A DNA stretch of 32,654 bases. Origin: a virus. The DNA is taken from positions 1 through 32,654 of IMG/VR virus record IMGVR_UViG_3300007555_000020. One strand, given 5' to 3'. Position 1 is the stretch's first letter; each line of letters opens with the position of its first letter. The notes under the pieces were generated by a model. It did not search any database. It saw only the letters and a program-made list of their open reading frames with translations, and had not been told where the DNA came from. Positions 1-30,963 of this stretch are shown piece by piece. Position numbers and translations under genes: made by a program.

Positions 1-1110
1 ACCCTGTTCGTCTAGATCAGAACCAATACTCAATAAAGTTAAAACATTATCTTTGATTGATTGCGCCCAATCCGCATTCCCGAAGTTCTTTAGAACACCA
101 TCTGACATACCAGCAACAGCAGAACCAGCACCAAATACCGCAAGACCCGCAGCAATACCTGTCATTGCAACAAGGAATGTAGCACCATCTCCAATGAATG
201 CCGTTTTACCACCCAGTTCATCGCTAATGGACATCAAGGTTATTACTGAATCTTTAATACCATGCGCCCAATCACTACCTTTCATGAAAGCGTTCAGTCC
301 AGAACCAATACCGAATACTGCGAGACCAGCACCTATACCTGCCATTGCTGCTGTAAAGATTGCACTGTCTATAAGCATATTCAGATTGCCACCAAGATTA
401 TCTTTGATTGACAATAGTGTTGTGACATTGTCAACAACATTTTGCGCCCAGTTACCCTGACCAAATTTTTCGAGTAGTGCTTGGGACATACCAGCAATCG
501 CAGAACCAGCACCAAATGCAGCAAGACCCACACCAATCGCAACCATCGCTGGTTTGAATAATAGAAGAGCTGCAAGTTTACTTGCATCCATCTCATTCCC
601 TATACTCAGTAGGGTCAGAACACTGTCCTTAACTTTCTGTGCATCAATGATACCAGATGACATGAGTCCAGCAACAGCAACAATCGCAAGTATACCAACA
701 CCAGCACCCTTTGCGAGTCCTCCGAGCATACCACCGAATCCCTTGACCTTCTTACCAAGCGCACCCATGAGATTGCCAGGAGCATCCTTTACTTTATTTG
801 CCCCGTCTTTCAAGGCTGAAGGGAGTTTTGCAAGTTTAGAAAATAATGCGTTCTGTTCTCGTTTAGATTCGAGATCGTCGCCTTTCTTAGACTGTTTGGA
901 TTTCTTAGCGTCCTTAGAATCCCCTCGTTTCTGATCGAGTATAGATTCTAAAAGATGATTAGTCATAACAGATTGGGCAAAGTCAGCCTTTCTGTGTTGC
1001 TTATCGTCTTTGTGACCTTCTTTCATGGTGTTGATCAACTTTCTCAGAAGATTCTTCTGAGATTCTTGGTCTCTACCACTACCAGCAGAGGGGTGCATTT
1101 CTTCGGACAT
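1..1110 (-). CDS. Tape-measure-like repetitive hydrophobic tail protein (partial, C-terminus beyond window)
   Basis: The frame is open for all 370 codons from the ATG at 1110 to the left edge, so the C-terminus is missing. The start follows the preceding stop directly (TAG-ATG), and AGGG seven bases upstream is a fitting ribosome site. Residues 1-100 are charged and lysine-rich (helical, many K/D/E/Q). A Gly/Ala-rich hydrophobic stretch follows, then at least three copies of a 60-67-residue unit: a Gly/Ala segment (AGLAVFGAGSAVAGM type), then W-A-(Q/H)-x-(I/V)-x-D-(N/S)-V-x-T-L-(L/M)-S-I. The W-A-(Q/H) triplets lie 180 and 201 bp apart. Position directly after gp26 and its extension, plus the hydrophobic helical repeats, fit a tail tape measure (gp29 role) that sets tube length and enters the host envelope. 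No sequence family is certain. It could instead be another large membrane-active virion protein. The whole repeat region is visible only on the minus strand. Confidence 0.6.
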   Translation of the reverse strand, partial: MSEEMHPSAGSGRDQESQKNLLRKLINTMKEGHKDDKQHRKADFAQSVMTNHLLESILDQKRGDSKDAKKSKQSKKGDDLESKREQNALFSKLAKLPSALKDGANKVKDAPGNLMGALGKKVKGFGGMLGGLAKGAGVGILAIVAVAGLMSSGIIDAQKVKDSVLTLLSIGNEMDASKLAALLLFKPAMVAIGVGLAAFGAGSAIAGMSQALLEKFGQGNWAQNVVDNVTTLLSIKDNLGGNLNMLIDSAIFTAAMAGIGAGLAVFGIGSGLNAFMKGSDWAHGIKDSVITLMSISDELGGKTAFIGDGATFLVAMTGIAAGLAVFGAGSAVAGMSDGVLKNFGNADWAQSIKDNVLTLLSIGSDLDEQG

Positions 1111-1299
1111 CTATCTACCCTGTTGTTGTTTTATCCTATCGTTCTCTTCTTTAATATATTCGGTGAGAAGAGTAACGTATACCTCCCTTTCCCACGGCAT
1201 CATCATTTCAAGTTCTGTTAAACTATAATGATGATGTTGCATTAACGAAAAGTTAGTCTGATAAAAATTTATCAGACTATCATGGGAAAGGTTTACTAA
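1111..1299 (-). CDS. gp26 C-terminal extension reached by probable -1 frameshift
   Basis: Reading on after a -1 slip at the end of gp26 gives 62 codons (TTA at 1299 to AGA at 1114, stop TAG at 1111-1113) without a stop, and the last 43 codons form an ORF starting with ATG at 1242. That ATG has no Shine-Dalgarno sequence (CTTTTCGTTA precedes it), and neither do the three in-frame ATGs at 1200-1208, so independent initiation looks poor. The product ends in a conserved-looking helical piece (YSLTELEMMMPWEREVYVTL), followed by a charged tail with KEEN and KQQQ. If the frameshift works, a 295-residue gp26 fusion is made. Its location between gp26 and the tape-measure gene is that of the T extension of the lambda G/GT tail assembly chaperones. 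The frame and its signals are seen directly; the function is inferred. Confidence 0.65.
   Translation of the reverse strand, partial: LVNLSHDSLINFYQTNFSLMQHHHYSLTELEMMMPWEREVYVTLLTEYIKEENDRIKQQQGR
1255..1278 (-). other. 11-bp hairpin downstream of the gp26 slippery site
   Basis: AGTCTGATAAA and its perfect reverse complement flank a two-base loop, both arms lying inside the frameshift extension. It starts about 20 bases after the slippery heptamer in the minus-strand mRNA, a longer spacer than the usual 5-9, so its role as a frameshift stimulator is plausible but not certain. No U-run follows it, so it is not a standard terminator. It may also hide the region just before the ATG at 1242. Confidence 0.6.
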
Positions 1300-1997
1300 A
1301 AAAAATCAGTAAAACCCGATAGTGTATGTTCGTTGTGCGTTCCACACTCTTTACAATCAAACTCAATCTCTTTTGTCAGAGTTGGAATCGTTGCAACAAA
1401 CTCACTAACTTTCTTAAACTGGTCGCCTGTCATAGAATCTATAAAATCACGCAATTCCTTTTTAGGTACATCGTTTGCGTTGATGTTTTCATCTTCGGTC
1501 ATAATGTTCTTGACACTATAGACAATCAGTTCGATTATTTGTTCTGTTTGTGATAAACCTTCTTTCATGTTCATCAAAACGTCTGCGGATGGATAACCCA
1601 TCTCCACATGGACATCTTCCTGTAACTCAATCTTTTCGGAAGGTTTATCCATTGTTACTTCTAGTTCTTCTAGATTGACTTCAAACTCATTAGGTGTATC
1701 ACAATTGGTACACTTCATGTTCAATCTACTACGTTCACCTACTGACTTACTACGGAGTTTGGTAAACATATATTCCACATCGAATGTGGTTAATTCCTTG
1801 GTGTTAATCTTGTCATCAACACAAACTTCAATGGTGTCAATTATCGCTTTCATTGCTTGAGTCGTATCTTGACTCTCAAATGCCATGAGAAGAACCTTCT
1901 CTTCTTTTACCAGATACGGTCTAAACCTCACTGTCTTCTGCATGGATGGAATCGTCATTTCATACTTCGGATTCCCATTTAACTTAGGTAATGCCAT
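1296..1997 (-). CDS. 26: Baseplate hub assembly protein gp26 / probable tail assembly chaperone
   Basis: This 233-residue protein begins MALPKLNGNPKYEMTIPSM and continues with the (R)FRPYLVKEEKVLLMAFES block typical of the T4 gp26 baseplate family (Pfam T4_baseplate). An ATG 12 bases upstream is in frame, but GGAG eight bases before the ATG at 1997 (TTTGGAGAATATA) favours the later start. Two Cys pairs, C96-x-x-C99 and C215-x-x-C218, look like a zinc ribbon. In T4, gp26 acts in hub assembly. Here its place immediately before the tape measure, and the frameshift signal at its end, suggest a role like lambda gpG, binding the tape measure during tail assembly. It follows the tube-fold gene by 18 bases. 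Confidence 0.85.
   Translation of the reverse strand: MALPKLNGNPKYEMTIPSMQKTVRFRPYLVKEEKVLLMAFESQDTTQAMKAIIDTIEVCVDDKINTKELTTFDVEYMFTKLRSKSVGERSRLNMKCTNCDTPNEFEVNLEELEVTMDKPSEKIELQEDVHVEMGYPSADVLMNMKEGLSQTEQIIELIVYSVKNIMTEDENINANDVPKKELRDFIDSMTGDQFKKVSEFVATIPTLTKEIEFDCKECGTHNEHTLSGFTDFF
1299..1305 (-). other. Slippery heptamer T-TTT-TTT for -1 frameshifting
   Basis: The last gp26 codons read GAT TTT TTT TAG, so the heptamer T TTT TTT lies in the correct phase (X XXY YYZ) directly before the stop. A run of eight T residues spans it. A tandem slip by one base moves the ribosome into a frame that stays open for 62 codons. A stop codon next to the heptamer is a known enhancer of slipping in several systems. 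Confidence 0.7.
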
Positions 1998-2015
1998 TAT
2001 ATTCTCCAAATAATG

Positions 2016-2717
2016 TTATAAAAATTTACGAATTAGTTCACCCGCCAGACCTTTAACAAAATCGGTCGGTACAGAGTCACCTTTTTTGGACTTCCAGTTC
2101 TTGTATGACATTTGTACTGTCACTTCAAGTAACTGTCCATCATCACTCAACTCAATTGCGTTCAATGTTGTTGGGTATGCTTTATCTAGGACACAAGTAT
2201 ATGTGATATCATCACCAAATACTCCGTTAAAATCTAGTTCACCTTGTGCGAGGTCTATTGGCCCTAGTCGTGGTAATCTACTTCTAATCGAAGAAGGTAT
2301 CTTACCAGTATCAAATAATTTTTTCTTTTTAATAGGGAATGCAACTCCCTTCTTAATGTGTTGTATAATGATCGGATGTGTATACTCGTTAAAGTATCCA
2401 ACCTCTTGGGTCTCTTGATTGACCGCAAGACTCTGCCATGTCTCGAAGTATTCCTTTACTTTCATGTCATTAAGACAATGGAAGGTCAAAGTTACATCTT
2501 CGTTTGCATAACCATATGCAATCTTAGATACTGTAAGACCCATTTGTTTTTCGGTTGATAGAATTTGTCTGCCTGGCAAAGATGTTGCCTTACAGAGTAG
2601 ATTCATCTCTCGTGCATCACCATTGATGGGTGGGAGGAAAATCTTATACAGATTTCCCATGGCGACACCGCCACCTTTACCAACCTGTGATTTGAATTCA
2701 TCAATGTTTAACGTCAT
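2016..2717 (-). CDS. 54: Tail-tube-fold baseplate protein, gp54-like
   Basis: The 233-residue product opens with a short N-terminal segment (LNIDEFKSQVGKGGG) and then shows the tail-tube pattern: a 'YKIFLPP' strand, 'LLCKATSLPGRQI' around residue 45, a Tyr/Gly-rich 'KIAYGYANEDVTLTFHCLND' strand pair and a 'YFETWQSLA' helix, which resembles gp19/gp48/gp54-type tube proteins. It is longer than a plain tube subunit would need to be, and gp48 is encoded across the divergent promoter, so the tube initiator gp54 is the best fit. Its start overlaps the stop of the preceding gene as ATGA. It could instead be a second tube paralogue; the fold assignment is firmer than the number. Confidence 0.55.
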   Translation of the reverse strand: MTLNIDEFKSQVGKGGGVAMGNLYKIFLPPINGDAREMNLLCKATSLPGRQILSTEKQMGLTVSKIAYGYANEDVTLTFHCLNDMKVKEYFETWQSLAVNQETQEVGYFNEYTHPIIIQHIKKGVAFPIKKKKLFDTGKIPSSIRSRLPRLGPIDLAQGELDFNGVFGDDITYTCVLDKAYPTTLNAIELSDDGQLLEVTVQMSYKNWKSKKGDSVPTDFVKGLAGELIRKFL

Positions 2718-3328
2718 GCGTTTTTACCTATTTTCTTTCGTGAATCTGCATAAACTTTCTTAGAGTTCGCCTTACGGAACTGTGCGGTTGGTAAGAAGGT
2801 TGCGATCTCCCATTCAGGCATGGGTACTTCTGCGAACTTACTCTTGACGTGTTTAGTCAGATAATGTTTGAAACAGGGTTCGTAGTATTTCAACTTGGAA
2901 ACTGCCTGTAACTTCTTATATGTTATCTGAAACTTTGCATCGTCAGTCGCCTTCATGTTTGCGGTTTCCATCAATGCATCCAACATCTTCGCACGTAAAA
3001 TTGGTGGAAGATAATGTAGGTTCAATCCATAGAATCCACCTTCCGCAGGCCCAACCACAATAATCAAAGGAAACAAATCATAGTATGGAAGTTTATCTTT
3101 GTGTTTAGGGTCATAGAAGAACATCTGCATTGTTCCGACTAATCCAGTTCTCGACAGATTCTTCAATGCAGTTCTCTGGACGAGAGGGTCTTCCTTTATC
3201 AGTTTGGTGCGGTTTATGTTACGCATATTCTTTGCTTTGTTCATAAACCATGCACGAGACTCATCTGTTCGTGGAGTTATCCCCGCACGGAATGCCTGCA
3301 ATTCTAGTCTGTTGAAAATATTACTCAT
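2714..3328 (-). CDS. Conserved T4-like structural protein, possible gp2 (DNA end protector)
   Basis: The 204-residue protein has a basic N-terminus (ESRAWFMNKAKNMRNINRTK), then 'MQMFFYDPKHKDKLPYYDLF', 'GFYGLNLHYLPP' and a lysine-rich tail (RKANSKKVYADSRKKIGKNA). The 'LPYYDxFPL...GxNLHYLP' core is one I associate with a protein common in T4-like phages next to gp4, where T4 itself has gene 2, whose product caps DNA ends in the capsid. The high positive charge fits DNA contact. The gp2 name is inferred mainly from position; a neck or baseplate role is not excluded. The ATG lies five bases after a TATAAATA box, so its own late transcript would be leaderless. It ends in an ATGA overlap with the next gene. 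Confidence 0.5.
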   Translation of the reverse strand: MSNIFNRLELQAFRAGITPRTDESRAWFMNKAKNMRNINRTKLIKEDPLVQRTALKNLSRTGLVGTMQMFFYDPKHKDKLPYYDLFPLIIVVGPAEGGFYGLNLHYLPPILRAKMLDALMETANMKATDDAKFQITYKKLQAVSKLKYYEPCFKHYLTKHVKSKFAEVPMPEWEIATFLPTAQFRKANSKKVYADSRKKIGKNA

Positions 3329-5661: not shown

Positions 5662-7019
5662 TGAAGACCTCGAAGTCTCAACAGTATAAAATTATTGAAG
5701 CACTAATCACCGCTGATCGTTTTGGGGGCGGAGATGTTTCATCCTTTGACGTAAAGACTTCTGTTGTGGAACTTAGTTTATTCGAAAGTTTAGATAAACC
5801 TTATCTATCAGGTCAGGTTGTCCTTCTTGATGATAAAGCGTTATTCGACACAATATCCTTTCAAGGAACCGAGAGATTGTCGATTAAGATGTCCTCGGTT
5901 GATAACAATCTTGATGTGGTCATGGAACGTACATTCATTATGACAGGTATCGAACGTTCTATTAAGTCTAACGATAATGGAAAGTCTAGTGTACTCTTGT
6001 TTACATTATTAGATGAACACGCATTTCTATCGTCTCTCAAGAAAATCAGCAAATCATTCAATGGTCGTATTGATGAAATCTTAATTAAGATGCTTGCAAC
6101 AGAGATGGGTCTTGACATTGACTTATCGTATCTATTCTTACCTAATGGAAAACGAAACCTTCCGTTACAATCAAATATGAAAGGTATCATTCCTAATCTG
6201 ACACCAATTGATGCAGTAGATTGGTTGACCAAACGTGCGACCACAGTCACAGGTTCGCCATTCTTTACATATGCATCAATGCATGATAAAAATTTAAGAC
6301 TGGGTAATCTAGATGCGATGTTGTCACAAAAGGCGTTCAACTCAAAGTTACCTTATGTGTATAATCCAGCAAACATTGCTGGCGCAGAAGACCAGACAGA
6401 GTTTGAGAAGACCTTCACGATTAAGGCGCTCATGGTATCAAAACAAGCAAATACTCTAAACTTGATTCAACAGGGCGCAATTGCTTCTACTATGCAGAAT
6501 ACCAATATTAATACTGGTAGGATATCCAAGAGTAAACACTCAATAAAAAATGTTCTAGATAATCTAGAACAACATAGTTTTATTGGTGCAAATCAGAACG
6601 TGTTTGATGCAGAGATGAAGATAGGTGACAAGATTATAGATGAACACAGTTCTCATGTCTACCATACTGTCACTTCTTCGGGTACTTACGGTAGATTTAA
6701 GTCGTACCACGATGAATACGATGGAACAAAACTTAAAAAGAAATTAGAACGAAGGTCAGTACTGAATCATTTGTATAAAAATATGTTAAATGTGGTTGTC
6801 GAAGGTGCTGGTTTCATCATCTCAAAAGCTGGTGTTGGTGATATAGTTAATCTAAAAATCGTGAATGATAATATTGAACAATCTAAAATTGCATCACCAG
6901 ACGATTTGGTAGATAAGGCGAAGTCAGGTGATTTTATTATCTATGATACAAGACACACATTCCAAGGGACACAACACACCGTGTCGATGAATGTTTGTAA
7001 ACTGGAGAAACTTCCATAA
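5661..7019 (+). CDS. gp27-like baseplate hub protein
   Basis: A 452-residue protein; T4 gp27 has 391. The N-terminal third ('VVELSLFESLDKPYLSGQVVLLDD', then 'FIMTGIERSIKSNDNGKSSVLLFTLLDEHAF') is a beta-rich domain typical of hub proteins, followed by 'LTPIDAVDWLTKRATT' and 'SPFFTYASMHDKNLRLGN', which match the tube-like domain of gp27/gpD hubs. The last part ('YDTRHTFQGTQHTVSMNVCKLEK') is a usual hub ending. Its place between gp53 and the gp5-type gene supports the call: the trimeric hub carries the spike. Sequence identity to gp27 itself is too low to judge by eye. Confidence 0.7.
   Translation: MKTSKSQQYKIIEALITADRFGGGDVSSFDVKTSVVELSLFESLDKPYLSGQVVLLDDKALFDTISFQGTERLSIKMSSVDNNLDVVMERTFIMTGIERSIKSNDNGKSSVLLFTLLDEHAFLSSLKKISKSFNGRIDEILIKMLATEMGLDIDLSYLFLPNGKRNLPLQSNMKGIIPNLTPIDAVDWLTKRATTVTGSPFFTYASMHDKNLRLGNLDAMLSQKAFNSKLPYVYNPANIAGAEDQTEFEKTFTIKALMVSKQANTLNLIQQGAIASTMQNTNINTGRISKSKHSIKNVLDNLEQHSFIGANQNVFDAEMKIGDKIIDEHSSHVYHTVTSSGTYGRFKSYHDEYDGTKLKKKLERRSVLNHLYKNMLNVVVEGAGFIISKAGVGDIVNLKIVNDNIEQSKIASPDDLVDKAKSGDFIIYDTRHTFQGTQHTVSMNVCKLEKLP
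6551..6571 (+). repeat. Perfect inverted repeat inside the hub gene
   Basis: TGTTCTAGAT and its exact reverse complement surround a single A. The centre encodes NVLDNLEQ, so it may be chance codon choice; no regulatory role can be shown. Confidence 0.5.
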
Positions 7020-7882
7020 TGAATCCAATTCTATCTGAGTTCTATGGTGATAACACACGATGGTTCGTTGCAACTGTGATTGATGCATCACCCCCATATG
7101 GTTATGAGGGACGAGTGAAGATTCGTGTTCACGGATTACACACAGAATCCACCCGACTAATTCCTCAGTCCGATCTACCTTGGGCACAATGCATGGTTCC
7201 TACTACCGAAGGCGGTGCATCTGGTATCGGACGAATGCCACAACTACAACCAAGTGCATTGGTATTTGGTATGTTTATGGATGGAGTAAACTCACAGACA
7301 CCTATTATACTTGGTTCACTTCCACATATCGAATATCCTACTACAGTACAAATAGGTCAAACAGAAGTCTCCTTGGATGCAGATAACAAACCAGAAGTTG
7401 TTTGGGATAATGTTGCGACAGAATCCTCACCCAAAAACATCGATATACAAAACGAAACAACTGGTGACATCTCTTTGCTTGTAAAACAAAATAGGGAAAA
7501 GACTGCGGTATCGTTCTTCTTAAATCTAGGTTATTCGGTTAAACAATCTATAGGTTTAACTGCTGCACTCAGTTTTGTTTCTGGTTTTAAGACAGGTGTT
7601 AGTTCAGATTCAAATGGGATAGGGGCATTCACGAAACTCCGATACTCAGAGTTACAAAAATTCTCTAACGATTATAACGAATTTTTGATTCAGTTATCCT
7701 TTGTCGCATTTGAATTAAATGGTACACAATCTAGTACAAACATTAGACTTCTCAACTCAGATAAACTTGAGAATAAAGGTATATGTTACATAGTCAGTAA
7801 GTACTACTTGGGCAAACCAGACAGTGTATCAATCAAAGAGATTGAAAGAAATGCACTTAACTTAGTAGATAGGATTTCATAA
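7019..7882 (+). CDS. gp5-type spike protein: OB fold plus degenerate tail-lysozyme domain
   Basis: Residues 1-105 are the gp5/VgrG-like OB fold: 'WFVATVIDASPPYGYEGRVKIRVHGLH', 'LPWAQCMVPTTEGG', 'LQPSALVFGMFMDG', 'PIILGSLPH'. Residues 165-285 resemble the phage tail lysozyme domain: 'VSFFLNLGYSVKQSIGLTA', 'SGF', 'SNGIGAFTK', 'QLSFVAFELNGT'. In active members the helix ends in an A-E-S-G-F type motif; here it reads F186-V187-S188-G-F, so the expected catalytic Glu is a Val. The domain may be structural only. The needle beta-helix that follows the lysozyme in T4 gp5 is absent here and is found two genes on. Start overlaps the hub stop (TAATG). Confidence 0.65.
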   Translation: MNPILSEFYGDNTRWFVATVIDASPPYGYEGRVKIRVHGLHTESTRLIPQSDLPWAQCMVPTTEGGASGIGRMPQLQPSALVFGMFMDGVNSQTPIILGSLPHIEYPTTVQIGQTEVSLDADNKPEVVWDNVATESSPKNIDIQNETTGDISLLVKQNREKTAVSFFLNLGYSVKQSIGLTAALSFVSGFKTGVSSDSNGIGAFTKLRYSELQKFSNDYNEFLIQLSFVAFELNGTQSSTNIRLLNSDKLENKGICYIVSKYYLGKPDSVSIKEIERNALNLVDRIS

Positions 7883-9939
7883 TGTCACTTGATAAAACAA
7901 ATTTGAATGTTAATCTCGGTTCCGAGAACAGAAAGAAACATAGTCTAGAGGCGACACATCTTCGTTCTAGTAGAAGGGCAATCGAAGAACGTTTTGCGAA
8001 ACGTAATACTATCATTGGTCAAGAAAATGGTCTAGAAGTCGCTGGTATAAAGACACTAGGTCAATCTACAAACTCTTCGGAAGAGGTTATCAACAGTTCG
8101 GTAGGACAGTTCACCGACAACATTAATGGAATTACTGGTATACAGGGGAATAACACATCAACAACAAGTGATACTGTACTCGACTCAGATGGTAATTTTC
8201 TTCGTTTGAAAGTGCCAACTGACTCGGATGGTAGTCTAGTGGAGAAAACTCAAACAATAGACTCTGATGGTTCTGGTAATCTTACGATAACCCAGAGTGC
8301 TGGTCGTGATATAACCGACCCCGCTCGTTCGTTTGGTTCTAAGACAACATCTGTTACATCATTAACAGGACTTCCAGCACTTAAAGCGACCAACCCGACT
8401 TCTGCACTTGCGGTTGTGTGTGATGGTACTGCGGAGAGTATTGCAAAATGTCAAGGTATTGCGGAGAATAAGAAATCGTTAGACTTCGCAGAAATAGAAA
8501 CCTTCACGAATATTACCGAAGCACTGAGACCTCCTAGTTCTATTGGCGGTAATTTCCTGTCTAGACCTTCCATGAGTAATCTAAAGTTTTCGGGTAATCT
8601 GGCGAACACATTAAGTTCGATTGCACCCATTGCAGCTATAAATGATGCAGTTTCAACTGTAACTGATGCAATTGATGAAGCACAAGCATTGCCTGGCAAG
8701 TTGATTCAGAAAGCGACAGACTCTGTTGTAAATTCCACTAACCTAGATGGACTGACCGATAAAAAACAGGGACTTAAATCCGAAATACCAGAGTTGGGTA
8801 CTGCCGCTGGTATTGTAGATACTGATGTGAAAAATGTTTCTAGTTCGTTAGATAAATTTAAGGAAGGAGCGGATAACTTCAACACTGGTTTTGATGGTAG
8901 AAGTAATAGGGGTTTGTCTGGTGTTCTACAAAATGTTGCAGAATCACTAACTGGTGCTGCATCATCTTTCATTGAGAATCTGGTTCCTGGCGGGATATCA
9001 TCATCAGAACAAGAACGAATTGCGATACTGGAACAGTTTAATTCGGGTAATAGTAAGGATAAGAAGGAGGGTGTTAAGACTCTTGTGTCCAAGTCACCTA
9101 ATGTATCAGACCGCATGAAAGAAGTTCTTGGTGATGACCCTAATACTTCTACTACCTTAGATATGCAAATAAAGATGCAAGAGGAAGCGAGAAGACGAGG
9201 TATCCCAGAATCAGAGATTGCGATTGCGGTACAAGAAATATCATCTATTGAACAACAGATGAGTGATTTGGATACTACCATTAGTGGTTCCTTTGTTGTT
9301 AGTGCTAACTTGTTTGATGTTGCAGAACCAATTGATCAGTCAGCGAAATGGAGTGGCAAGAGTAGTCCAGATGATATGTTCACTATGGTATCATCTGTCG
9401 AGGAACTTGATGCGGAATTTGGTAATGTCTTCCGTCAAATCACAGAGTTGGTTATCCATGCAACCGAGACATACACCAATAAAGATATAGGTGCGGTTGA
9501 GATAAATAACCTACAAGTAGAGTTGGGACATGAGGGTATTGGATACCATTATGTGATTCGTAGAGATGGTAGACTGCAACGTGGTAGACCAGTTAACCGT
9601 ATCGGTGAACACGCTGTGGTCAATGGCCATGATACATACTCTATAGGTATTGCAATGGTGGGTGGACTGAATGTTTCTTCGGGTGATAACAACCCTACAG
9701 ACTATAGGTCTGCACAATCGTTTACTAGAGAACAGTTTACCACATTAGAAAAGTTTGTCAATAGTTATTATCGTAGATATCCAGGCGGACAAGTGTTTGG
9801 ACACAACGACATTGATGCAAGTGAATTTGACCCATACTTTGATGTACAGGATTATATTGAGTCGGTATTCAGAAAAGAGAATAAAATAGGTGACCCATTA
9901 AATTCTGCGCCATTGAGTCCATCGGAGATGAATAAGTGA
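7882..9939 (+). CDS. Tail-associated N-acetylmuramoyl-L-alanine amidase with long N-terminal arm
   Basis: The product has 685 residues. Residues 1-500 are low-complexity (Ser, Thr, Asn, Asp), with Ala-rich helical stretches near 245-290 and 400-470; I recognise no domain there. Residues about 520-670 are an Amidase_2/PGRP domain: 'ITELVIHATETY', 'GHEGIGYHYVIRRDGRLQRGR', 'HDTYSIGIAMVGG', 'FTREQFTTLEKFV', 'VFGHNDIDASEFDPYFDV'. Likely zinc ligands are H526, H641 and D650; Asp as third ligand matches AmpD rather than the Cys of T7 lysozyme. It should cut peptidoglycan between muramic acid and L-Ala. Position between the gp5-like OB protein and the needle suggests it is part of the spike and opens the wall during injection. 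Start follows the stop of the previous gene as TAATG. Confidence 0.8.
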   Translation: MSLDKTNLNVNLGSENRKKHSLEATHLRSSRRAIEERFAKRNTIIGQENGLEVAGIKTLGQSTNSSEEVINSSVGQFTDNINGITGIQGNNTSTTSDTVLDSDGNFLRLKVPTDSDGSLVEKTQTIDSDGSGNLTITQSAGRDITDPARSFGSKTTSVTSLTGLPALKATNPTSALAVVCDGTAESIAKCQGIAENKKSLDFAEIETFTNITEALRPPSSIGGNFLSRPSMSNLKFSGNLANTLSSIAPIAAINDAVSTVTDAIDEAQALPGKLIQKATDSVVNSTNLDGLTDKKQGLKSEIPELGTAAGIVDTDVKNVSSSLDKFKEGADNFNTGFDGRSNRGLSGVLQNVAESLTGAASSFIENLVPGGISSSEQERIAILEQFNSGNSKDKKEGVKTLVSKSPNVSDRMKEVLGDDPNTSTTLDMQIKMQEEARRRGIPESEIAIAVQEISSIEQQMSDLDTTISGSFVVSANLFDVAEPIDQSAKWSGKSSPDDMFTMVSSVEELDAEFGNVFRQITELVIHATETYTNKDIGAVEINNLQVELGHEGIGYHYVIRRDGRLQRGRPVNRIGEHAVVNGHDTYSIGIAMVGGLNVSSGDNNPTDYRSAQSFTREQFTTLEKFVNSYYRRYPGGQVFGHNDIDASEFDPYFDVQDYIESVFRKENKIGDPLNSAPLSPSEMNK

Positions 9940-11438
9940 CAACTAAGAAAGACAATTTTGACCTAAGAGTCGATAAGATCGGTGAAGGTACAGAGAATAC
10001 TCTGGGTGTTCCTAGTGATGGAATGCAAGACCCTACTGGTGAGTACCCCAAACGTGAGTATAACTATGGGTCATCAATCAATAAGGCATCTCGTGGTTCC
10101 AAGACGAATAACCTCTATGTTGGGGGTGGTGACATTGGTGTATCTTTGGGGATACAGTCACAACGTCCTTCCGAATATCCGTTCAACCAAGTACAGGAAA
10201 CTGTGTCGGGTCATGTAATCGAACAGGATGACACGCCTGGCGGTGAACGAGTACTGATCAAACATCGTACAGGTGCGGGTGTGGAGATGAGGGCAGATGG
10301 TTCTGTTATCATTTCCGCAGTAAACAACAAGGTCGAAGTGACTGGTGGTGACCAGACTGTCATCATTGAGGGTAATGGTAATCTCGTGTATCAAGGTAAC
10401 TTGAACATGAAGGTGACTGGTGACTACAATGTTGACGTGGGTGGTAACTACAATGTCAATGTTGGTGGTAGTCTACGTGAAGAGATTCAACAGAATCATC
10501 GAACCATCACAACAGGTAATCGTGAAGAGACTGTTAAGAAGACCAAGACAAACAGAACCTTGAGTACCGTTACAGATGTTATGTTAGCAGACCACAATCA
10601 GTTTGTCAAGTTAGACCAAAAGAATTTTGTTGAGGGTAATATTGAGATTGCTGCGGAGGACAATATCCTCGTGTCAGGTAAGGAAGCAGTTGCAATCACG
10701 AGTAAGAATGCAAACATCACTGGTGCGAAGTATGTTTCTGTTATGGGACAAAAGGGTGCAATCGGTGGTAGAATGGTTGACTTTACAGGTAACGTATTCC
10801 AAGGTGGCGAAGGCCCTGTTGAGTTTAACTCAGGTGCGAACTTCTATGGTACGTTCTTTGGTAAGGCGTCTGAAGCATGGAAAGCGAATAACGCAAACTT
10901 CGCTGATCTTTCACTTAGGTCATACTATGCACAGAATGCAAAAGCTGCGAAGACCGCAGTAACCGCTGGTACTGCTGCGGTGGGTTCGGCAACATTCACA
11001 CCACCCGACCTGTTAAGTGCAAGTACACATACTCCTATATTTGCAGAGGAATTTCAATATCCGAGTTCGGGTCTTGGTCAAGCACAAATTACTGGTGAGT
11101 GGGTAATAGGTCAAGCGGTCAATGGTGACTATGCAATCAGAACAGTTGTGGTTGATGGTGGAGATGTATTATTGACCAAAACCCTGTTATCAGATGACTA
11201 TAAAAACGTATTCGATAAGATTCCGACAACCCAAGAGATTCGTTCTGCGTTTCGAAACTCGGCATCTCGTAATACTATTGGTTCGACTCTTGTTGCAGAA
11301 GAAAGACTCAATCCACAATATAAAACAAAGACTCCACCATCAGTTGGTAGGACTGCGAAGAAATCCGCTTCATCTAGATTTGGATTTGAACCTATTGGTA
11401 ATGCAATTGAGAATAGAGGAAAGAGATTTACGCCATGA
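9936..11438 (+). CDS. gp5 C-terminal-type needle (triple beta-helix spike)
   Basis: The start is GTG, overlapping the amidase stop (GTGA), with GGAG eight bases before it. Residues 95-275 hold a valine/glycine repeat of eight-residue type ('GADGSVII', 'KVEVTGGDQTVIIEG', 'NLNMKVTGDYNVDVGGNYNV'), the Gp5_C pattern that forms the three-stranded beta needle in T4 gp5. A beta-rich region follows ('GAKYVSVMGQKGAIGG'), then an Ala-rich segment (320-345) and a positively charged tail. In T4 OB fold, lysozyme and needle are one chain, cut after assembly; here they are separate genes. Length 500 residues. Confidence 0.8.
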   Translation: MTTKKDNFDLRVDKIGEGTENTLGVPSDGMQDPTGEYPKREYNYGSSINKASRGSKTNNLYVGGGDIGVSLGIQSQRPSEYPFNQVQETVSGHVIEQDDTPGGERVLIKHRTGAGVEMRADGSVIISAVNNKVEVTGGDQTVIIEGNGNLVYQGNLNMKVTGDYNVDVGGNYNVNVGGSLREEIQQNHRTITTGNREETVKKTKTNRTLSTVTDVMLADHNQFVKLDQKNFVEGNIEIAAEDNILVSGKEAVAITSKNANITGAKYVSVMGQKGAIGGRMVDFTGNVFQGGEGPVEFNSGANFYGTFFGKASEAWKANNANFADLSLRSYYAQNAKAAKTAVTAGTAAVGSATFTPPDLLSASTHTPIFAEEFQYPSSGLGQAQITGEWVIGQAVNGDYAIRTVVVDGGDVLLTKTLLSDDYKNVFDKIPTTQEIRSAFRNSASRNTIGSTLVAEERLNPQYKTKTPPSVGRTAKKSASSRFGFEPIGNAIENRGKRFTP

Positions 11439-24322: not shown

Positions 24323-26941
24323 ATGAGTGTTCCATTAAAATTAAAGGATAGTGCAGCGCCAACAGAACTTCAGAAGTTTTCTTCGACTGAAGAGAACTAT
24401 CTCGCATACCAAACAGGTCTATATCTCGCAGAACAGGACTCTACTAATACTGGTAGACTGTCTACGTCTTTGGCGGCATCTTCTTATCAACCTATCGGCA
24501 CTTTCGTTAATACCTCTTATGATTCTGCGGTGGGTACTCCATCTGGAGTTGGCGGTTTCTTGCCGATCACCACTGTTGGTTCAGTAATAGGACAAAATAC
24601 TTTTGTTCAATCTAATGCGGACAGTGATGTACGTAGACTTATCTATTCAGATTCCGATACTAGTGTGGGTTATACCCAGACTGATGGTGGTGTTGATACA
24701 GTTATACCCCAACTTAAAATCAGGGAGATGGATGATTCTGACCAAATCAGGGTGATCGATAGAATTAATTCGACCATCTATACAAACGATTACCCAGGCA
24801 CATACAAATTATCTTCTTCTGGGTCACTTACCGACTATGCGATTGAAAAACATATTTTTAGTGACACTAGGACAGATGGTACTACTGTTCCATACTATCT
24901 TCATAAAAGAACCACCATGACCGCACCAACAGCTGTGCGACCATTTGCGATAAAAAGGTCTAATGGTGATAGTGGTGATTATCAGGGTCTTCAACAAATG
25001 ACAGACCGACAGATAGGTCAAAGTCTGGGTACTGTATCAAAAAATCGAATTGGTCAGTCGGCTAATCCTGTCGGTTCCTACTTACTTCTAAGTTCTGCAC
25101 AAGGTACTCCTGTCGCAAATGGGTATTCTGGTTCGTGGTCATCAAAGGGTACTGCAACAGACACTCGACAAGCGGTTACTGATGCAACTTATACACGTAG
25201 TAGGGTTTCAACATATGCGAGACAAAGAGATTCTACTTACTCACAAGACTACACTAGAGATAGAGCTTCGACATTCTCACAACAATTTATAGGTAATTAT
25301 ACTCGTAATTTTAGCGACACCTATACTAGAACTCGTACAAGTATATACTCGCCAGGCTTTGTGGGCGACTACATTGGTAACTATACTACAGAAAGAGACC
25401 AAAACTTTACAAGAGTTTCTACGAGAACCAGTACATATTCTAGAACTAGTACCAGAGATCGTAACCAAGACTTCCAAGGCACAAGTAGTTATACTGGTAA
25501 TTTCCTTGGTAACTATGCTGGTGACTATTTGGGCGTCAGCAATAGTCCCTATTACGGTAATAATTCTACTTACTATTGGAGGGTTGTCCGCAGTTATTAT
25601 GGCAATTCAGCAACTTTATATGTTGTCTTTAACGGCGTCACTGTAATACAGAACTCTTACTCAAATCACAGCACTGCTATGAACGTGACTTCATATCCTG
25701 GCAATGATGGTTTTACATACGAGAGAGGTGTTTCGATAACAGGTTATACCCTCACCGATAACTGGGCGGTTAGACAAAAGAATTATAATCATAATTTCCA
25801 AGGTGTCTATTCAGCCAGTTATACAAGAACCAGTACTAGACAGAATCAGTTTGTTGGCGACTTCGCAGGTAACTATGTCGGCAACTTCTCAAGAACTCTT
25901 TACTTTGATGGTGATTTTACTGGTGACTTTGTTGGTGACTTCACCCGAAATAGTACCAGAACCGTAGAAGATAGTTTTAGTCGTAACTTTGTTGGTGACT
26001 ATGTCGGCAACTTCACTAGAACTAGAACAAGTAATTATACAAGGGAGAGGAATACACAGTTTCAGAGAACACGTACAAGTACCTATGCTGGTAACTTTAC
26101 TGGGGACTTTACTGGTAACTACGGTGGTAATTTCCTTGGTAACTATGTTGGTACTGCTGTGGTAACTCTAAGTAGTAATGAAGCTGTTACTAATGTGGAT
26201 ACTACTATAGTAAGTTCCGGCTCAAGAACGATTACTTATCTTCAGATGGCAGGATATTTTACTGGTTATGTTGATGGTGGTCAACGTCTAATGAGATTCT
26301 ACCGTGCTTTCCAATATAATGAAATGACCAATCAAGGCCCGGCTTTTTATACTTATTTGTTCATGGCGGAGAATAGTGATACTGGCGACATTGAGGACAG
26401 CACACCAGCCGCTTATGGTGGTTCTTATGGGTCGCCAGAGGGCGGTTTCGCCCAAGCACTCTCTCGCCTACAATCAACCAGCTCCTCTCTTCGCTATACG
26501 GTAACCGTTGGTAGTGGAACAGCCTCTTATACTAGAACATCTACCCGAACTTCAACCAGAAATTCTACTCGAGCTTCAACCAGAACGTCTTCAAAGAATT
26601 TCGAAGGAAACTACACAGGTGACTTTACTGGTAATTATTCAAGAAACTTTGTGGGCAATTACACAACAAACTTTCAGAGAACACGAGTATCCAGTTACAT
26701 TGGCGCATCAGAATTCTCACGAGATTTCGTTGGTAACTATGTTGGCAACTACAGTAGTGAATTTTTACGTACCTCTACAAGAACAAGATCGGAGAATTAT
26801 ATAGGTAACTATACTGGTAATTATGCGAGAAGTTTTGAGGGTAATTATTCAAGAACCTTTACAGGAAATTACGCTGGCACAGAAATAGGGAGTAGTCCCA
26901 CAAACATTGAGACATATACACTCTATGTAAGAACCGCATAA
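24323..26941 (+). CDS. Tetrapeptide-repeat fibre protein A with two globular inserts
   Basis: This 872-residue protein has a globular N-terminus (about 1-285) paralogous to that of the next gene: 'STEENYLAYQTGLYLAEQDS', 'NDYPGTYKLSS', 'TMTAPTAVRPFAIKRS', 'YQGLQQMTD'. From about 290 it is a four-residue repeat of [F/Y/S/R]-x-[G/R/S]-[N/D/T], e.g. 'FTGDFVGDFTRN', with arginine-threonine tetrads ('YTRTRTSI'). Two inserts without repeats break the array: about 404-492 ('YYGNNSTYYWRVVRSYYGNS') and about 611-735 ('YLQMAGYFTGYVDGG'). It ends 'TYTLYVRTA'. Start: GGAG about 11 bases before the ATG. A structural/adhesive role is inferred; the fold of the repeat is unknown to me. No membrane or signal segment. 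Confidence 0.7.
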   Translation: MSVPLKLKDSAAPTELQKFSSTEENYLAYQTGLYLAEQDSTNTGRLSTSLAASSYQPIGTFVNTSYDSAVGTPSGVGGFLPITTVGSVIGQNTFVQSNADSDVRRLIYSDSDTSVGYTQTDGGVDTVIPQLKIREMDDSDQIRVIDRINSTIYTNDYPGTYKLSSSGSLTDYAIEKHIFSDTRTDGTTVPYYLHKRTTMTAPTAVRPFAIKRSNGDSGDYQGLQQMTDRQIGQSLGTVSKNRIGQSANPVGSYLLLSSAQGTPVANGYSGSWSSKGTATDTRQAVTDATYTRSRVSTYARQRDSTYSQDYTRDRASTFSQQFIGNYTRNFSDTYTRTRTSIYSPGFVGDYIGNYTTERDQNFTRVSTRTSTYSRTSTRDRNQDFQGTSSYTGNFLGNYAGDYLGVSNSPYYGNNSTYYWRVVRSYYGNSATLYVVFNGVTVIQNSYSNHSTAMNVTSYPGNDGFTYERGVSITGYTLTDNWAVRQKNYNHNFQGVYSASYTRTSTRQNQFVGDFAGNYVGNFSRTLYFDGDFTGDFVGDFTRNSTRTVEDSFSRNFVGDYVGNFTRTRTSNYTRERNTQFQRTRTSTYAGNFTGDFTGNYGGNFLGNYVGTAVVTLSSNEAVTNVDTTIVSSGSRTITYLQMAGYFTGYVDGGQRLMRFYRAFQYNEMTNQGPAFYTYLFMAENSDTGDIEDSTPAAYGGSYGSPEGGFAQALSRLQSTSSSLRYTVTVGSGTASYTRTSTRTSTRNSTRASTRTSSKNFEGNYTGDFTGNYSRNFVGNYTTNFQRTRVSSYIGASEFSRDFVGNYVGNYSSEFLRTSTRTRSENYIGNYTGNYARSFEGNYSRTFTGNYAGTEIGSSPTNIETYTLYVRTA
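25190..26896 (+). repeat. Twelve-base (tetrapeptide) repeat array in fibre protein A
   Basis: Codon blocks for F/Y-x-G-N/D alternate with T-R-T-S/T-R tetrads. Two non-repeat inserts interrupt the array near 25535-25800 and 26153-26525. DNA copies are diverged, so this is an old protein-level repeat and not a fresh satellite. Confidence 0.8.
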
Positions 26942-26944
26942 ATA
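26937..26944 (+). promoter_or_regulatory. Possible weak late promoter
   Basis: CATAAATA, one base off the TATAAATA box, overlaps the end of fibre gene A and sits 8 bases before the ATG of gene B, with GAGG between. Could be chance from the codons for A-stop. Confidence 0.25.
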
Positions 26945-26952
26945 GAGGTATT

Positions 26953-29073
26953 ATGGGAGATACTACACTAAAACTTGAAGGCACTAATGGTGACCTCAAG
27001 GAAATAACGACTACCGAAGAGAACTACCTTGCGTACCAAGCTGGGTTGCATATCTCTACATTAGATTCTAACGCCCTAGGTATGTTGTGTACTGTTAATA
27101 ACAATGTTAAAACTGTTGGTGTGCTTACCGATGGGTATTATAGTTCTGGGCCAGGCAGTCATGCATTCGATGGTGGTGGTGTTCCTGTAACCACAGTGCA
27201 AACGACACTATTTCAGAAAGGTACTGCTGATACAGTTGATTTTGCCAATGATTCATCTGCATTCCGATACCCAATTGAATTTACTGATAACAGCGGAACG
27301 TCCGAAATACATGAGTTAGATTCTTCGGAAGTTGACACTCTCACCGACCGATTACTTTCTCGTATTACAACATCCGAATATCCTGGCACAATCAAGATCG
27401 GTTCATCTGCACCCAGTTCAGATTATTCGGTATACAAAGCTGGAGTCTTTGAAGATACTCTGGTTGATGGTACTGCCGGAACAACTTATAATCTGTATAT
27501 AAGAGATACGATGACCGCACCCACGGCTGTGCGACCAGTTGCAATCAAAAGGTCTAGTGGTCTGACAGGCACTTTCCAAGGTCTTCAGGAAATGACTGAT
27601 GCCGAAATTGGTTATACCTTTGGTACAAGATGTCAAACTAGGATGCAAAAAGATGGTTTTTCATTTCCTGTTGATATTGGTAGTTATCAGTTAAGAAGTA
27701 ATTCACAAGGTGCGCCATCTTCGTCAGGTACTTGGGTCTCTCGTGGTACTGCGACAGATACACGTCACTCAACAGGGGACGTAAATTACACCACAGATTT
27801 TACCCGAACCCGATCAAGTAGTTTTGAAGGAAATTATTCCAGAACCTTTGCAGGAAATTACTTAGGTAACTTTACTGGTAATTTCCAGTCAGGTTTCACC
27901 GGCAACTTCGAGGGCAATTTTTCAAATTCTGGGTTTCTTGGTGATTACACTGGTAATTATAGTAGAAACTTTGTTGGTAACTATACTGGTAATTATTCGA
28001 GAAACTTTGTAGGCAATTATACAGGTAATTATAGCAGAGACTTTACTGGTAACTATGCAAGAGCATTTAGTGCAAACTATCAGAGAACACGTACAAGTAA
28101 CTTTGTTGGTGATTTCACTGGTAATTATAGCAGAGACTTTGAAGCTAATTATACACAAGACTTTACTGGTAACTTTGCTGGTGATTTCACAGGTGATTTT
28201 ACTGGTAACTTTACAAATGTGTTTTCCCAAGCGTATACCAGAACTCGTGTAACAGACTTTACTGGTAACTATGCTGGTGACTTTGCTGGTAACTTCTTTG
28301 GTAACTACGGTAGAACCTACTTAGGTAACTTTACTGGTAACTTTGTTGGTAACTATACCAGAACATCAACACGTACTAGTAGACAATCTTCATCATATGT
28401 AGGCACTACAAATTATTATGGTAACTTTACTGGTAACTATACCAGAACATCAACACGTACTAGTACTAGGAATGATGGATCAACATATACGAGAACGAGT
28501 ACGAGAACGAGTACGAGAGCGAGTACGAGAACGAGTACAGGCAATTTTGTTGGTAACTATACTGGTAATTACTCAAACGATTTTACAAGAAATTCTACTC
28601 TTAACTCTACCAGAGATTCTCTTAATGACTTTACTGGCGACTTTGTTGGTAATTATTCAAGAGCATTTAGTGCAAACTATCAGAGAACACGATCAAGCAA
28701 TTATGTAGGTGACTACACTGGTAATTATTCTAGGGACTTCTTGAGAACGAGAAGTTCTGCATTTTCGGCTGAATACCAAAGAACGAGGAGTTCTGCATAT
28801 TCAGCTGAATACCAAAGAACGAGAAGTTCTGTCTTCTCTGCTAACTATACAAGGAATCGAGTTTCCACATTCTCGCAGGATTTTACCAGAAATTCCACAG
28901 GTGATTTTACTCGTGATAGTACAGCGACCTCAACGAGATCACGTACTAGTACTTTCAGTGCAAACTATAGTAGAAACTTTCTTGGTAACTATACTGGCGA
29001 TTTTCAAGGAACAACTGTTGGTAGTGGAACCTTTGTCAGTGCAACATATACCCTATACCAAAGGGTTTCGTAA
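26953..29073 (+). CDS. Tetrapeptide-repeat fibre protein B, paralogue of A
   Basis: A 706-residue protein whose first 275 residues match protein A ('TTEENYLAYQAGLHISTLDS', 'YPGTIKIGSS', 'TMTAPTAVRPVAIKRSSG', 'TFQGLQEMTDAEIGYTFG'), so the two arose by duplication. From residue about 282 to 690 it is an almost unbroken four-residue repeat, more than thirty copies of G-N-(Y/F) units ('YTGNYSRNFVGNYTGN') mixed with R-T-S tetrads ('YQRTRSSAYSAEYQRT'). It has no insert like those of A. It ends 'SATYTLYQRVS', like A. It is Asn/Gly/Thr/Tyr-rich, with many N-x-S/T triplets. GAGG eight bases upstream is a fair ribosome site. Probably a trimeric adhesin shaft; no catalytic motif. Confidence 0.7.
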   Translation: MGDTTLKLEGTNGDLKEITTTEENYLAYQAGLHISTLDSNALGMLCTVNNNVKTVGVLTDGYYSSGPGSHAFDGGGVPVTTVQTTLFQKGTADTVDFANDSSAFRYPIEFTDNSGTSEIHELDSSEVDTLTDRLLSRITTSEYPGTIKIGSSAPSSDYSVYKAGVFEDTLVDGTAGTTYNLYIRDTMTAPTAVRPVAIKRSSGLTGTFQGLQEMTDAEIGYTFGTRCQTRMQKDGFSFPVDIGSYQLRSNSQGAPSSSGTWVSRGTATDTRHSTGDVNYTTDFTRTRSSSFEGNYSRTFAGNYLGNFTGNFQSGFTGNFEGNFSNSGFLGDYTGNYSRNFVGNYTGNYSRNFVGNYTGNYSRDFTGNYARAFSANYQRTRTSNFVGDFTGNYSRDFEANYTQDFTGNFAGDFTGDFTGNFTNVFSQAYTRTRVTDFTGNYAGDFAGNFFGNYGRTYLGNFTGNFVGNYTRTSTRTSRQSSSYVGTTNYYGNFTGNYTRTSTRTSTRNDGSTYTRTSTRTSTRASTRTSTGNFVGNYTGNYSNDFTRNSTLNSTRDSLNDFTGDFVGNYSRAFSANYQRTRSSNYVGDYTGNYSRDFLRTRSSAFSAEYQRTRSSAYSAEYQRTRSSVFSANYTRNRVSTFSQDFTRNSTGDFTRDSTATSTRSRTSTFSANYSRNFLGNYTGDFQGTTVGSGTFVSATYTLYQRVS
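28058..28091 (+). repeat. 34-base direct repeat, copy 1
   Basis: Identical to 28658-28691, exactly 600 bp apart, encoding R-A-F-S-A-N-Y-Q-R-T in both copies. A length divisible by three keeps any recombination in frame. Confidence 0.85.
28347..28381 (+). repeat. 35-base direct repeat, copy 1
   Basis: Identical to 28431-28465, 84 bp apart (28 codons), encoding G-N-Y-T-R-T-S-T-R-T-S. In-frame deletion or gain by recombination is possible. Confidence 0.85.
28431..28465 (+). repeat. 35-base direct repeat, copy 2
   Basis: Second copy of the 28347-28381 repeat; both contain the segment encoding TRTSTRTS. Confidence 0.85.
28489..28536 (+). repeat. Four tandem 12-base units (ACGAGAACGAGT)
   Basis: Units 1, 2 and 4 are identical; unit 3 has one change (ACGAGAGCGAGT). 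Each encodes T-R-T-S (unit 3 T-R-A-S). Identity this high marks a recent expansion within the older array. Confidence 0.9.
28658..28691 (+). repeat. 34-base direct repeat, copy 2
   Basis: Second copy of the 28058-28091 repeat; the flanks diverge directly after it. Confidence 0.85.
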
Positions 29074-29112
29074 AATACTTATATATAATTTTGAATGAAT
29101 TAGGAGACAACA

Positions 29113-29562
29113 ATGTCTAGAACATGGTTAGATAATGCATTTTGGGAAACCCCTCGAAAGAAAACTCTAAATGCAATTAGTGAGATTGTCGAAGGAAATA
29201 AAACAACTCGTAAGGTTTGGAAACTCGACAAGTTAAACGCTGACGGCACAGAGAACGAAGATTTCAAAGAAGTCGTTGCGTTTCTTGGCGAAGAACAGAT
29301 TAACAATTCAAGTAAGAAACGACTCGAACAGAAACAAGAAGAAGCAGAAGTTGATAAACAACAAAAACTTGAAAAGGAACGTGCGAAGAAACTAGAGAAA
29401 CTATTTGCATATAAACTAGAAACCTTTGAGATCGAAGAAATCAAAGCATCTAAGAATCGTGCATTGAAATCTAAACTGAGACGTTCTAAGTCTGTCCCTG
29501 AAGTGAACCTTTACGCTATTTTAATTATACAGGACTCTATGAAAAATGAAGGAACTCACTAA
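29113..29562 (+). CDS. Small charged helical protein of unknown function
   Basis: A 149-residue protein starting 'MSRTWLDNAFWETPRKKTLNA', with a long Lys/Glu coiled-coil-like middle ('KKRLEQKQEEAEVDKQQKLE', 'KERAKKLEKLF') and a basic tail. GGAGA seven bases upstream is a strong ribosome site. An AT-rich string (TATATATA at 29080-29087) lies in the preceding 39-base gap but is not a clear promoter. I do not recognise the family. Placement after the fibres and before a glycosyltransferase suggests a fibre assembly or attachment factor. Its last 17 bases overlap the next gene. Confidence 0.5.
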   Translation: MSRTWLDNAFWETPRKKTLNAISEIVEGNKTTRKVWKLDKLNADGTENEDFKEVVAFLGEEQINNSSKKRLEQKQEEAEVDKQQKLEKERAKKLEKLFAYKLETFEIEEIKASKNRALKSKLRRSKSVPEVNLYAILIIQDSMKNEGTH

Positions 29563-30289
29563 AGGTTTTGTGATTGTTGCATCCAGAAATTCAAACTTCT
29601 ACATTTACGCTTGCAACCTAATAGAATCAATCCGAGACTGGTATCCTGATGCGAATATAACACTTTTCACTGAAGAAAGGTTTATTGACCATCGTGCAGA
29701 TGAAGCTGATAATGTCGAAATTTGTGACAATCATTATCGTGCGAAACTAACTGGTATGGCCCAAACACCCTACGACATCACCATGTATGTTGATGCAGAC
29801 ATGGAATGCGAACACGAAGACATCGCAAAGGTCTGGGATGAAATGAAGGACTATGATTTAGTCTTTCATGAATTGAATAAAGAACGTGAAAAGTTTTATG
29901 CAATTCGTGAATTTAAGTTTGATGGTGGCGTTGAGAAGTACAAGTTATGTGGGGGTGTGTGTCTCTATCGTAGTTCCAATCCATTAGTAAAAGAGTTCAT
30001 GGAGGACTGGGATGATCTGTATCGTAGACAACATTCGGGTCAATGGAAACCCGATGGTTTTGATGATGATATTTGGAACAAAGACCTCAAACACTTTGAT
30101 CAGACAACCCTCTGGTGGTTGACCGAGAAGGTGGAAAAGTACAAAGGCTTGAAGATCGGAATCTTTGATGATGACATTCGATGGAACTACTTTACACAGT
30201 ATGATTATAGTGGTTTGAAAAAACCAGATAAACCCCCAATATTGAGACACTATTCTGGATGTTTACAGAAGGATAAGTTGATTGTATAA
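29546..30289 (+). CDS. GT-A-type glycosyltransferase
   Basis: The 247-residue protein begins 'KGFVIVASRNSNFYIYACNLIESIRDWYPDANITLFTE', an N-terminal Rossmann-like strand and helix typical of GT-A enzymes, followed by 'MYVDADMEC' with D83-A-D85 as the likely D-x-D metal and sugar-nucleotide site. 'KLCGGVCLYR' and 'FDQTTLWWLTEKV' fit the acceptor-side part of GT8-like folds, and 'PPILRHYSGC' may be the late His that closes the metal site. Substrate and acceptor cannot be read from sequence. Its position in the fibre block suggests a virion protein acceptor, though DNA or host glycans are possible. The start overlaps the previous gene by 17 bases; AGGA is 11 bases upstream. Confidence 0.65.
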   Translation: MKELTKGFVIVASRNSNFYIYACNLIESIRDWYPDANITLFTEERFIDHRADEADNVEICDNHYRAKLTGMAQTPYDITMYVDADMECEHEDIAKVWDEMKDYDLVFHELNKEREKFYAIREFKFDGGVEKYKLCGGVCLYRSSNPLVKEFMEDWDDLYRRQHSGQWKPDGFDDDIWNKDLKHFDQTTLWWLTEKVEKYKGLKIGIFDDDIRWNYFTQYDYSGLKKPDKPPILRHYSGCLQKDKLIV

Positions 30290-30963
30290 TGAAAAATATT
30301 CCTATAAGAAATAAGGAAGTCATTGAACTTCTCGAAGAAGTGAAAACATACTATGATGACCGTGAACATCTAATGTCACTTTTGCGTGTTAATGGAAGTG
30401 AAAAGGATGCGGATTGGTTTACAAGTGATGAGTATCGTGACCAAATTATAAACATGGATACCGACCACGATGGGTATCCAGAAGCTACTCACTCAATATC
30501 ACTAAAAAACACTCATCTAGACACTAATGGTAAGACCAAAAATAATGCTGAAATAGCAAAACTCGTAGAAAGATTTAGTATACTTAATGAAAAATTGTGT
30601 ACCATATTCTCTACACGAACGTGTGCATTGTTCACAATGTATCCGCCTGGCGGGTTTCTCTCGTGGCATAACAATGCAAATGCGTGTGCATATAACTTAA
30701 TCTTCTCTTGGTCAGAAACTGGAGACGGATACTTCAAATATGTTGATGGTAAGACAGGCGAAGATGTTGTCATGCAAGATGTACAGGGTTGGCAATGCAA
30801 AGCTGGATACTTTGGTTCGTATAGTGAATCTTGGGACAAAAGAGTTTATCATGCCGCAAAAACTAATTGTTGGAGAATAACCGTTTCTTTTATCTTTGAC
30901 GAGAGTGCAATGTCTATGGGTATGCAAGACGAAATCATAGAAGAAATAATGTCCGATTACTAA
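30289..30963 (+). CDS. 2-oxoglutarate/Fe(II) oxygenase-like protein
   Basis: The 224-residue protein has a helical N-terminus and a double-stranded beta-helix-like C-terminal half: 'LFTMYPPGGFLSWHNNANACAYNLIFSW', 'GDGYFKYVD', 'WQCKAGYFGSYSES' and 'KRVYHAAKTNCWRITVSFIF'. H127 and H188 fit the two metal histidines and R196, eight residues on, the 2OG-binding arginine. The usual Asp/Glu two residues after the first His is N129, so the standard facial triad is incomplete. Asparaginyl/aspartyl hydroxylases also lack this acid, so activity is not ruled out. It starts on the glycosyltransferase stop (TAATG). Acceptor is unknown; a fibre protein is a guess. Confidence 0.6.
   Translation: MKNIPIRNKEVIELLEEVKTYYDDREHLMSLLRVNGSEKDADWFTSDEYRDQIINMDTDHDGYPEATHSISLKNTHLDTNGKTKNNAEIAKLVERFSILNEKLCTIFSTRTCALFTMYPPGGFLSWHNNANACAYNLIFSWSETGDGYFKYVDGKTGEDVVMQDVQGWQCKAGYFGSYSESWDKRVYHAAKTNCWRITVSFIFDESAMSMGMQDEIIEEIMSDY

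Follow-up and report, generated by a model that had tools for sequence, protein, structure and literature searches.

Probable -1 frameshifting from gp26 into a gp51 domain at a conserved slippery heptamer in a T4-type phage and its relatives

The window analysed here is a 32,654-nucleotide stretch of DNA from a marine T4-type phage, taken from the IMG/VR virus record IMGVR_UViG_3300007555_000020, and the features discussed below are collected in Table 1. Its gp26 protein matches PF12322 with an E-value of 4.6e-57 (193.6 bits, against a curated cut-off of 24.5) and phrog_150, a baseplate hub family, with an E-value of 2.8e-59, and the start of the gene is accompanied by a Shine-Dalgarno sequence, GGAG, with a pairing energy of -6.4 kcal/mol. 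The 3' end of the gene reads GAT TTT TTT TAG, which gives the junction eight consecutive Ts. A first-pass annotation of the sequence had noted that this end contains a phase-correct slippery heptamer touching the stop codon, and that the -1 frame is open from there up to a stop abutting the ATG of the next gene; both the site and the frames are indeed seen directly in the sequence. The TGA preceding the heptamer closes the -1 frame, which consequently has no possible upstream start, and, with this TGA before the heptamer and the gp26 stop after it, the two open frames share the 7-nt slippery site only. The fusion of gp26 with the extension encoded in the -1 frame is predicted to be 295 residues long.

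Table 1. Positions, in window coordinates, of the features at the gp26 junction
Feature	Position	Strand	Remarks
gp26, short TAC-N-like form	1296..1997	-	233 aa; ATG at 1997, stop TAG at 1298-1296
Slippery heptamer T_TTT_TTT (U_UUU_UUU)	1305-1299	-	Phase-correct; adjoins the gp26 stop
TGA shutting the -1 frame	1306..1308	-	Immediately 5' of the heptamer; -1 frame open only 6 nt upstream
-1-frame extension, gp51 C-terminal domain (TAC-C-like)	1114..1299	-	62 codons
Extension stop TAG	1111..1113	-	Abutted by the ATG (1110) of the next gene
Predicted fusion, junction-crossing peptide			Contains GFTDFFLVNLSHDSL
Hairpin, putative frameshift stimulator	1254..1279	-	11-bp stem, 4-nt loop, -13.1 kcal/mol
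Downstream gene, tape-measure-like	1..1110	-	Runs off the window; tape-measure position

The extension had initially been taken as an anonymous stretch of 62 codons. Its length holds but its anonymity does not, as it matches phrog_634, the gp51 family labelled 'baseplate hub assembly catalyst', with an E-value of 1.4e-27, and aligns with the C-terminus of phrog_150 as well. Comparisons with close relatives in the -1 frame gave dN/dS values of 0.06-0.23, and codons 1-19 of the extension, with a pN/pS of 0.10, are under purifying selection to the same degree as the remainder. When gp26 and the extension were modelled separately, each as a single-frame translation, the extension yielded three helices (pLDDT 87), the first of which is predicted to be formed by codons 2-23.

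Public records mostly annotate this domain on its own as 'gp51 / baseplate hub assembly catalyst'. Read in this way, the extension would be a small gene in its own right, with translation beginning at a start codon within it or resuming by reinitiation once ribosomes have terminated on gp26; reinitiation would also be permitted in many cyanophages, where the fourth codon of the extension, shortly after the gp26 stop, is an ATG. In the window, however, the earliest ATG, GTG or TTG of the extension frame is the ATG of codon 20 (position 1242), the -1 frame being shut just upstream of the heptamer, and the pairing energy of this ATG with the Shine-Dalgarno partner is +0.4 kcal/mol, as against -2.9 to -8.7 kcal/mol for eight other genes of the window; an internal ATG lacking a ribosome site had been noted from the outset. 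Furthermore, initiation at this codon would forfeit 19 codons that are under purifying selection and form helix 1. Given the selection on codons 1-19 and the lack of a ribosome site at codon 20, translation must enter the -1 frame at or before codon 1, and a frameshift would appear to be the only ordinary route into the extension frame in the window phage. Taken with the two further arguments given below, from the third base of the codon before TTT and from the composition of T4 gp51, these observations make a separate gene very unlikely.

Relatives of the extension were recovered from 554 phage records, mostly of cyanophages, and among the matches listed they lie just downstream of gp26. A sample of 136 distinct gp26 3' junctions was assembled from loci fetched with either the extension or gp26 as anchor; fetching by the extension favours loci that have it, and 80 loci were fetched by gp26 alone. 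In this sample an in-phase U_UUU_UUN is kept at 134 junctions (the final base being C in 87, A in 29, T in 17 and G in 1), and the -1 frame was found to encode the gp51 part at 133 of the 136. Elsewhere in gp26 genes, T_TTT_TTN occurs in phase at a rate of 0.0005 per codon. Phages that keep the heptamer include Sinorhizobium phage phiM7, Stenotrophomonas phage YB07, Agrobacterium phage OLIVR5, Pelagibacter phage Mosig, Vibrio phages QD01, 1.081.O and VH7D, Pseudomonas phage pf16 and Methylophilales phage Melnitz. The two junctions that lack it belong to T4 and to the Salmonella phage NP4, in both of which gene 25 follows gp26. Hence the comparison of gp26 loci, which the first-pass annotation had proposed as a check on its frameshift, came out in favour of it, as did the low dN/dS of the extension, whereas its supposition that the arrangement is unusual for T4-type gp26 was not supported: the sampled non-T-even T4-type phages, cyanophages among them, usually have it.

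Conservation of the heptamer could merely follow from conservation of the encoded residues, and the two were separated by counting the minimum number of changes in 231 codon columns on a tree of 94 gp26 proteins; a naive product of codon probabilities was dropped in favour of this count. The codon before TTT varies between GAT, AGT, TCT, GCT and AAT, encoding D, S, A or N, and on the 94-tip tree it has undergone at least 23 changes in positions 1-2 and 0 in position 3. This combination is unique among the 231 columns; of the 171 columns with at least 15 changes in positions 1-2, every other one has 19 or more third-position changes, with a median of 37. The TTT codon also shows 0 third-position changes, against 14-41 in the other columns with an invariant residue, the start methionine and the second heptamer codon excepted. 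These counts suggest that selection acts on the heptamer over and above the protein. Reinitiation would not account for a third base, next to TTT, that stays fixed throughout the 94 genes even as the encoded residue varies.

The 11-bp hairpin reported in the first-pass annotation is present downstream, beginning 19 nt past the heptamer, and none of 200 synonymous recodings of the peptide folds as stably (z=-3.7, and -4.0 in a second run). Across 91 representatives, the 48 nt after the heptamer have a mean z of -1.9, as against 0 to -0.64 in eight other segments of both frames, and the hairpin signal is thereby confined to the 48 nt 3' of the site. In two groups of relatives the hairpins covary. 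The group with U_UUU_UUA has a different covarying hairpin, further downstream, where pairing starts after 21-23 nt in most folds and after about 15 nt if an outer stem forms; the cyanophage stems lie closer, starting about 5 nt (median 5) past the heptamer. RNAalifold returned no single consensus structure for 74 cyanophage sequences, because several unrelated hairpins occur at the same place in these phages, and the hairpins across the relatives are not all homologous. Two-sided changes in the commonest cyanophage hairpin convert GGCUCA/UGAGUC into GGCGCA/UGCGUC; they come from a type-1 subset of 33 sequences picked by eye for the hairpin, in which the high percentage of paired cells is partly a product of construction and the two-sided changes are the informative part. 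The 19-nt spacer of the window is long for a classical stimulator and is the weakest part of the signal.

Runs of eight Ts fall within the range in which RNA polymerase can slip, and transcriptional slippage on the T8 of the window, by producing mRNAs with an extra base that join both frames, would be expected to give the same product. Yet the run is exactly six Ts in 85 of the 93 representatives and its codon phase is strict, and the conserved downstream hairpins are better suited to ribosomal frameshifting, so that we consider slippage by the polymerase very unlikely as well. A sequencing error (homopolymer runs are error-prone), a decayed frameshift mutation or a coincidence is in practice ruled out by conservation, as independent metagenome contigs are identical to the window at the site, 134 distinct junctions, including those of isolate genomes, have the same arrangement, and the extension is under purifying selection. 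The conserved heptamer, the -1-frame extension, the hairpin and the selection from the first codon onwards all favour the programmed -1 frameshift at the T-run that had been proposed at the start, and the window phage very probably produces gp26 together with a minority gp26-gp51 fusion, made by a -1 slip, as chaperones of the lambda G/GT type.

The relationship of this gene to its T4 counterparts sheds light on both. T4 gp26 belongs to the same family (PF12322) as gp26 of the window. In T4 gp51, residues 1-201 match PF12322 (E=7.7e-55), and the match to phrog_150 extends over almost the full length; the gp26 profile detects the protein with an E-value of 1.5e-8, and its last 40-50 residues correspond to the extension domain in a profile comparison (E=3e-5). 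On these matches, T4 gp51 joins a full gp26-like domain to the extension; the functional long form is thus a fusion, in opposition to a gp51 that is made as a small protein of its own. Thus, the two forms come from separate, divergently oriented genes in T4, and the window phage would make both from one gene. At the end of T4 gp26 the heptamer has been lost (GAG TTC TTT GAG), and NP4 resembles T4 in having a fused gp51 gene in place of the site. The Klebsiella phage phi1_146015 has two tandem genes on the same strand (2001-3294), one of the fused gp51 type and one of the short gp26 type; this arrangement possibly represents a step between the single frameshifted gene and the divergent genes of T4. 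In the T4 strain GT7 (KJ477686) gene 51 is present and unannotated. We lean towards a scenario in which gp26/gp51 of the non-T-even T4-type phages is one frameshift-decoded chaperone gene, with hairpins that are selected, mutually unrelated and repeatedly replaced, and in which the T-evens would have lost the frameshift after a duplication and a fusion with the extension; the 'T4 exception' would then be a derived state.

The proposed decoding, in which the slip, its efficiency and the chaperone function of the products are inferred from sequence, would proceed as follows: 1) Most ribosomes would terminate at the gp26 TAG and release the 233-residue short form. 2) A minority would slip back by one base on U_UUU_UUU, assisted by the adjacent stop codon and the hairpin. 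3) These ribosomes would decode 62 further codons and complete the long fusion. 4) On the model of lambda gpG/gpGT, the tape measure protein would become coated with the short form, and the rare long form would use its helical gp51 domain either to bring in tail-tube subunits or to anchor the complex to the hub. In T4 the same pair of products comes from two genes, gp26 for the short form and gp51 for the long one.

Homology to T4 gp26 and gp51, which are listed as hub assembly chaperones (PMC3004832), and the position before a tape-measure-like gene make a role as G/GT-type tail assembly chaperones the most likely one by analogy. The downstream gene contains four hydrophobic stretches and degenerate repeats of about 65 residues (WAQ-I-DNVLTLLSI ... 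GAGLAVFGAGSAVAGM), and has no PHROG or Pfam match of its own; weak matches to tape-measure profiles were obtained for the corresponding genes of Melnitz, phiM7 and QD01, with E-values of 3e-8, 2e-5 and 1e-4, respectively. We accordingly term it tape-measure-like on the basis of its position and these weak matches in relatives. A fold search of the gp26 model (pLDDT 87) against all PDB chains ranked the HK97 chaperone 2ob9 second and third, at non-significant scores (E 1.2-1.8, probability 0.30-0.47), and comparison of the gp26 and extension profiles with the sequences of solved structures gave no credible match.

In lambda, as in P2 (E/E') and HK97, a short protein is accompanied by a rarer, longer -1 fusion, just as predicted for the window phage, and the lambda G/GT genes are situated between those for the tail tube and the tape measure. 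In lambda the short gene likewise has its heptamer, GGGAAAG, at the 3' end, five codons ahead of the G stop, whereas the window family uses U_UUU_UUN, touching the stop or one codon from it. The window phage is also set apart by its downstream hairpin and by the size of its short form, 233 residues as against about 140 in the lambda type. The likeness between gp26 and the lambda-type chaperones is one of gene arrangement, sequence homology forming no part of its basis. Parallels are also provided by S-PM2, P-SSM2, Syn1 and other cyanophages, which have the same overlap, a U_UUU_UUC heptamer, a gp51 domain in the -1 frame and a downstream hairpin; relative to the window, the hairpin of cyanophage pairs is nearer to the site and many of them have the ATG at extension codon 4. 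Cyanophage records annotate the pair as two genes or miss gp51, and none of those examined contains a joined gp26-gp51 CDS. In S-WAM1, ACG-2014b and S-PRM1 the extension is unannotated and a gap of about 180 nt separates gp26 from the next gene.

The G-T frameshift has been described in a 2016 review as widely conserved in long-tailed phages 'except T4' (PMC5009743). The link between gp26/gp51 and tail assembly chaperones of T4-like phages, on the other hand, goes back to Vladimirov, Gautam and Davidson (2022, Virology 566:9-15), as cited by PMC10885494 and PMC12846349, so that of the earlier proposal of a G/GT-like chaperone the role stands as the best reading and the novelty of the link does not. 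According to PMC10885494, the 2022 study also found that some T4-like phages do without frameshifting and encode the short form and the longer, fused form in separate genes, and PMC12846349 credits it with poly-T -1 frameshift signals in T4-like TAC-N genes. The latter paper describes, in the TAC-N/TAC-NC genes of Vandenendeviridae and Andersonviridae such as Pseudomonas phage Adele, a poly-T signal at the chaperone gene's 3' terminus, a -1 open frame and an unannotated long form, as in the window; the motif there is GTTTTT, in place of U_UUU_UUU, and the likeness noted is one of arrangement. To judge from these citing papers, the frameshifted gene of the window is a well-supported further example of a published kind and of limited novelty. 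Set against the same accounts, possible additions are the test on the tree, a hairpin that is under selection and has been replaced repeatedly, and the scale of the misannotation; the stimulatory hairpin may be undescribed.

Beyond the individual case, these results would give T4-type phages the same decoding trick as lambda and explain T4 gp51 as the long chaperone form. The exception made for T4 in PMC5009743 can be rephrased, in that relatives of T4 keep the frameshift and T4 itself has a two-gene substitute. Many records of cyanophages and other marine phages split one product in two or miss its long form, and the family supplies a ready set of naturally occurring heptamer variants and hairpins with which -1 frameshifting beside a stop codon can be studied.

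Two other regions of the window deserve mention. In the tail-fibre region (24323-30963, + strand), five consecutive ORFs of 872, 706, 149, 247 and 224 residues have no PHROG match at 1e-4. On the same strand, two genes, at 7019-7882 and 9936-11438, each match one piece of the gp5-type hub/tail-lysozyme profile phrog_430 and flank a 685-residue gene with an amidase domain (phrog_822), giving a split spike with an amidase gene between its parts.
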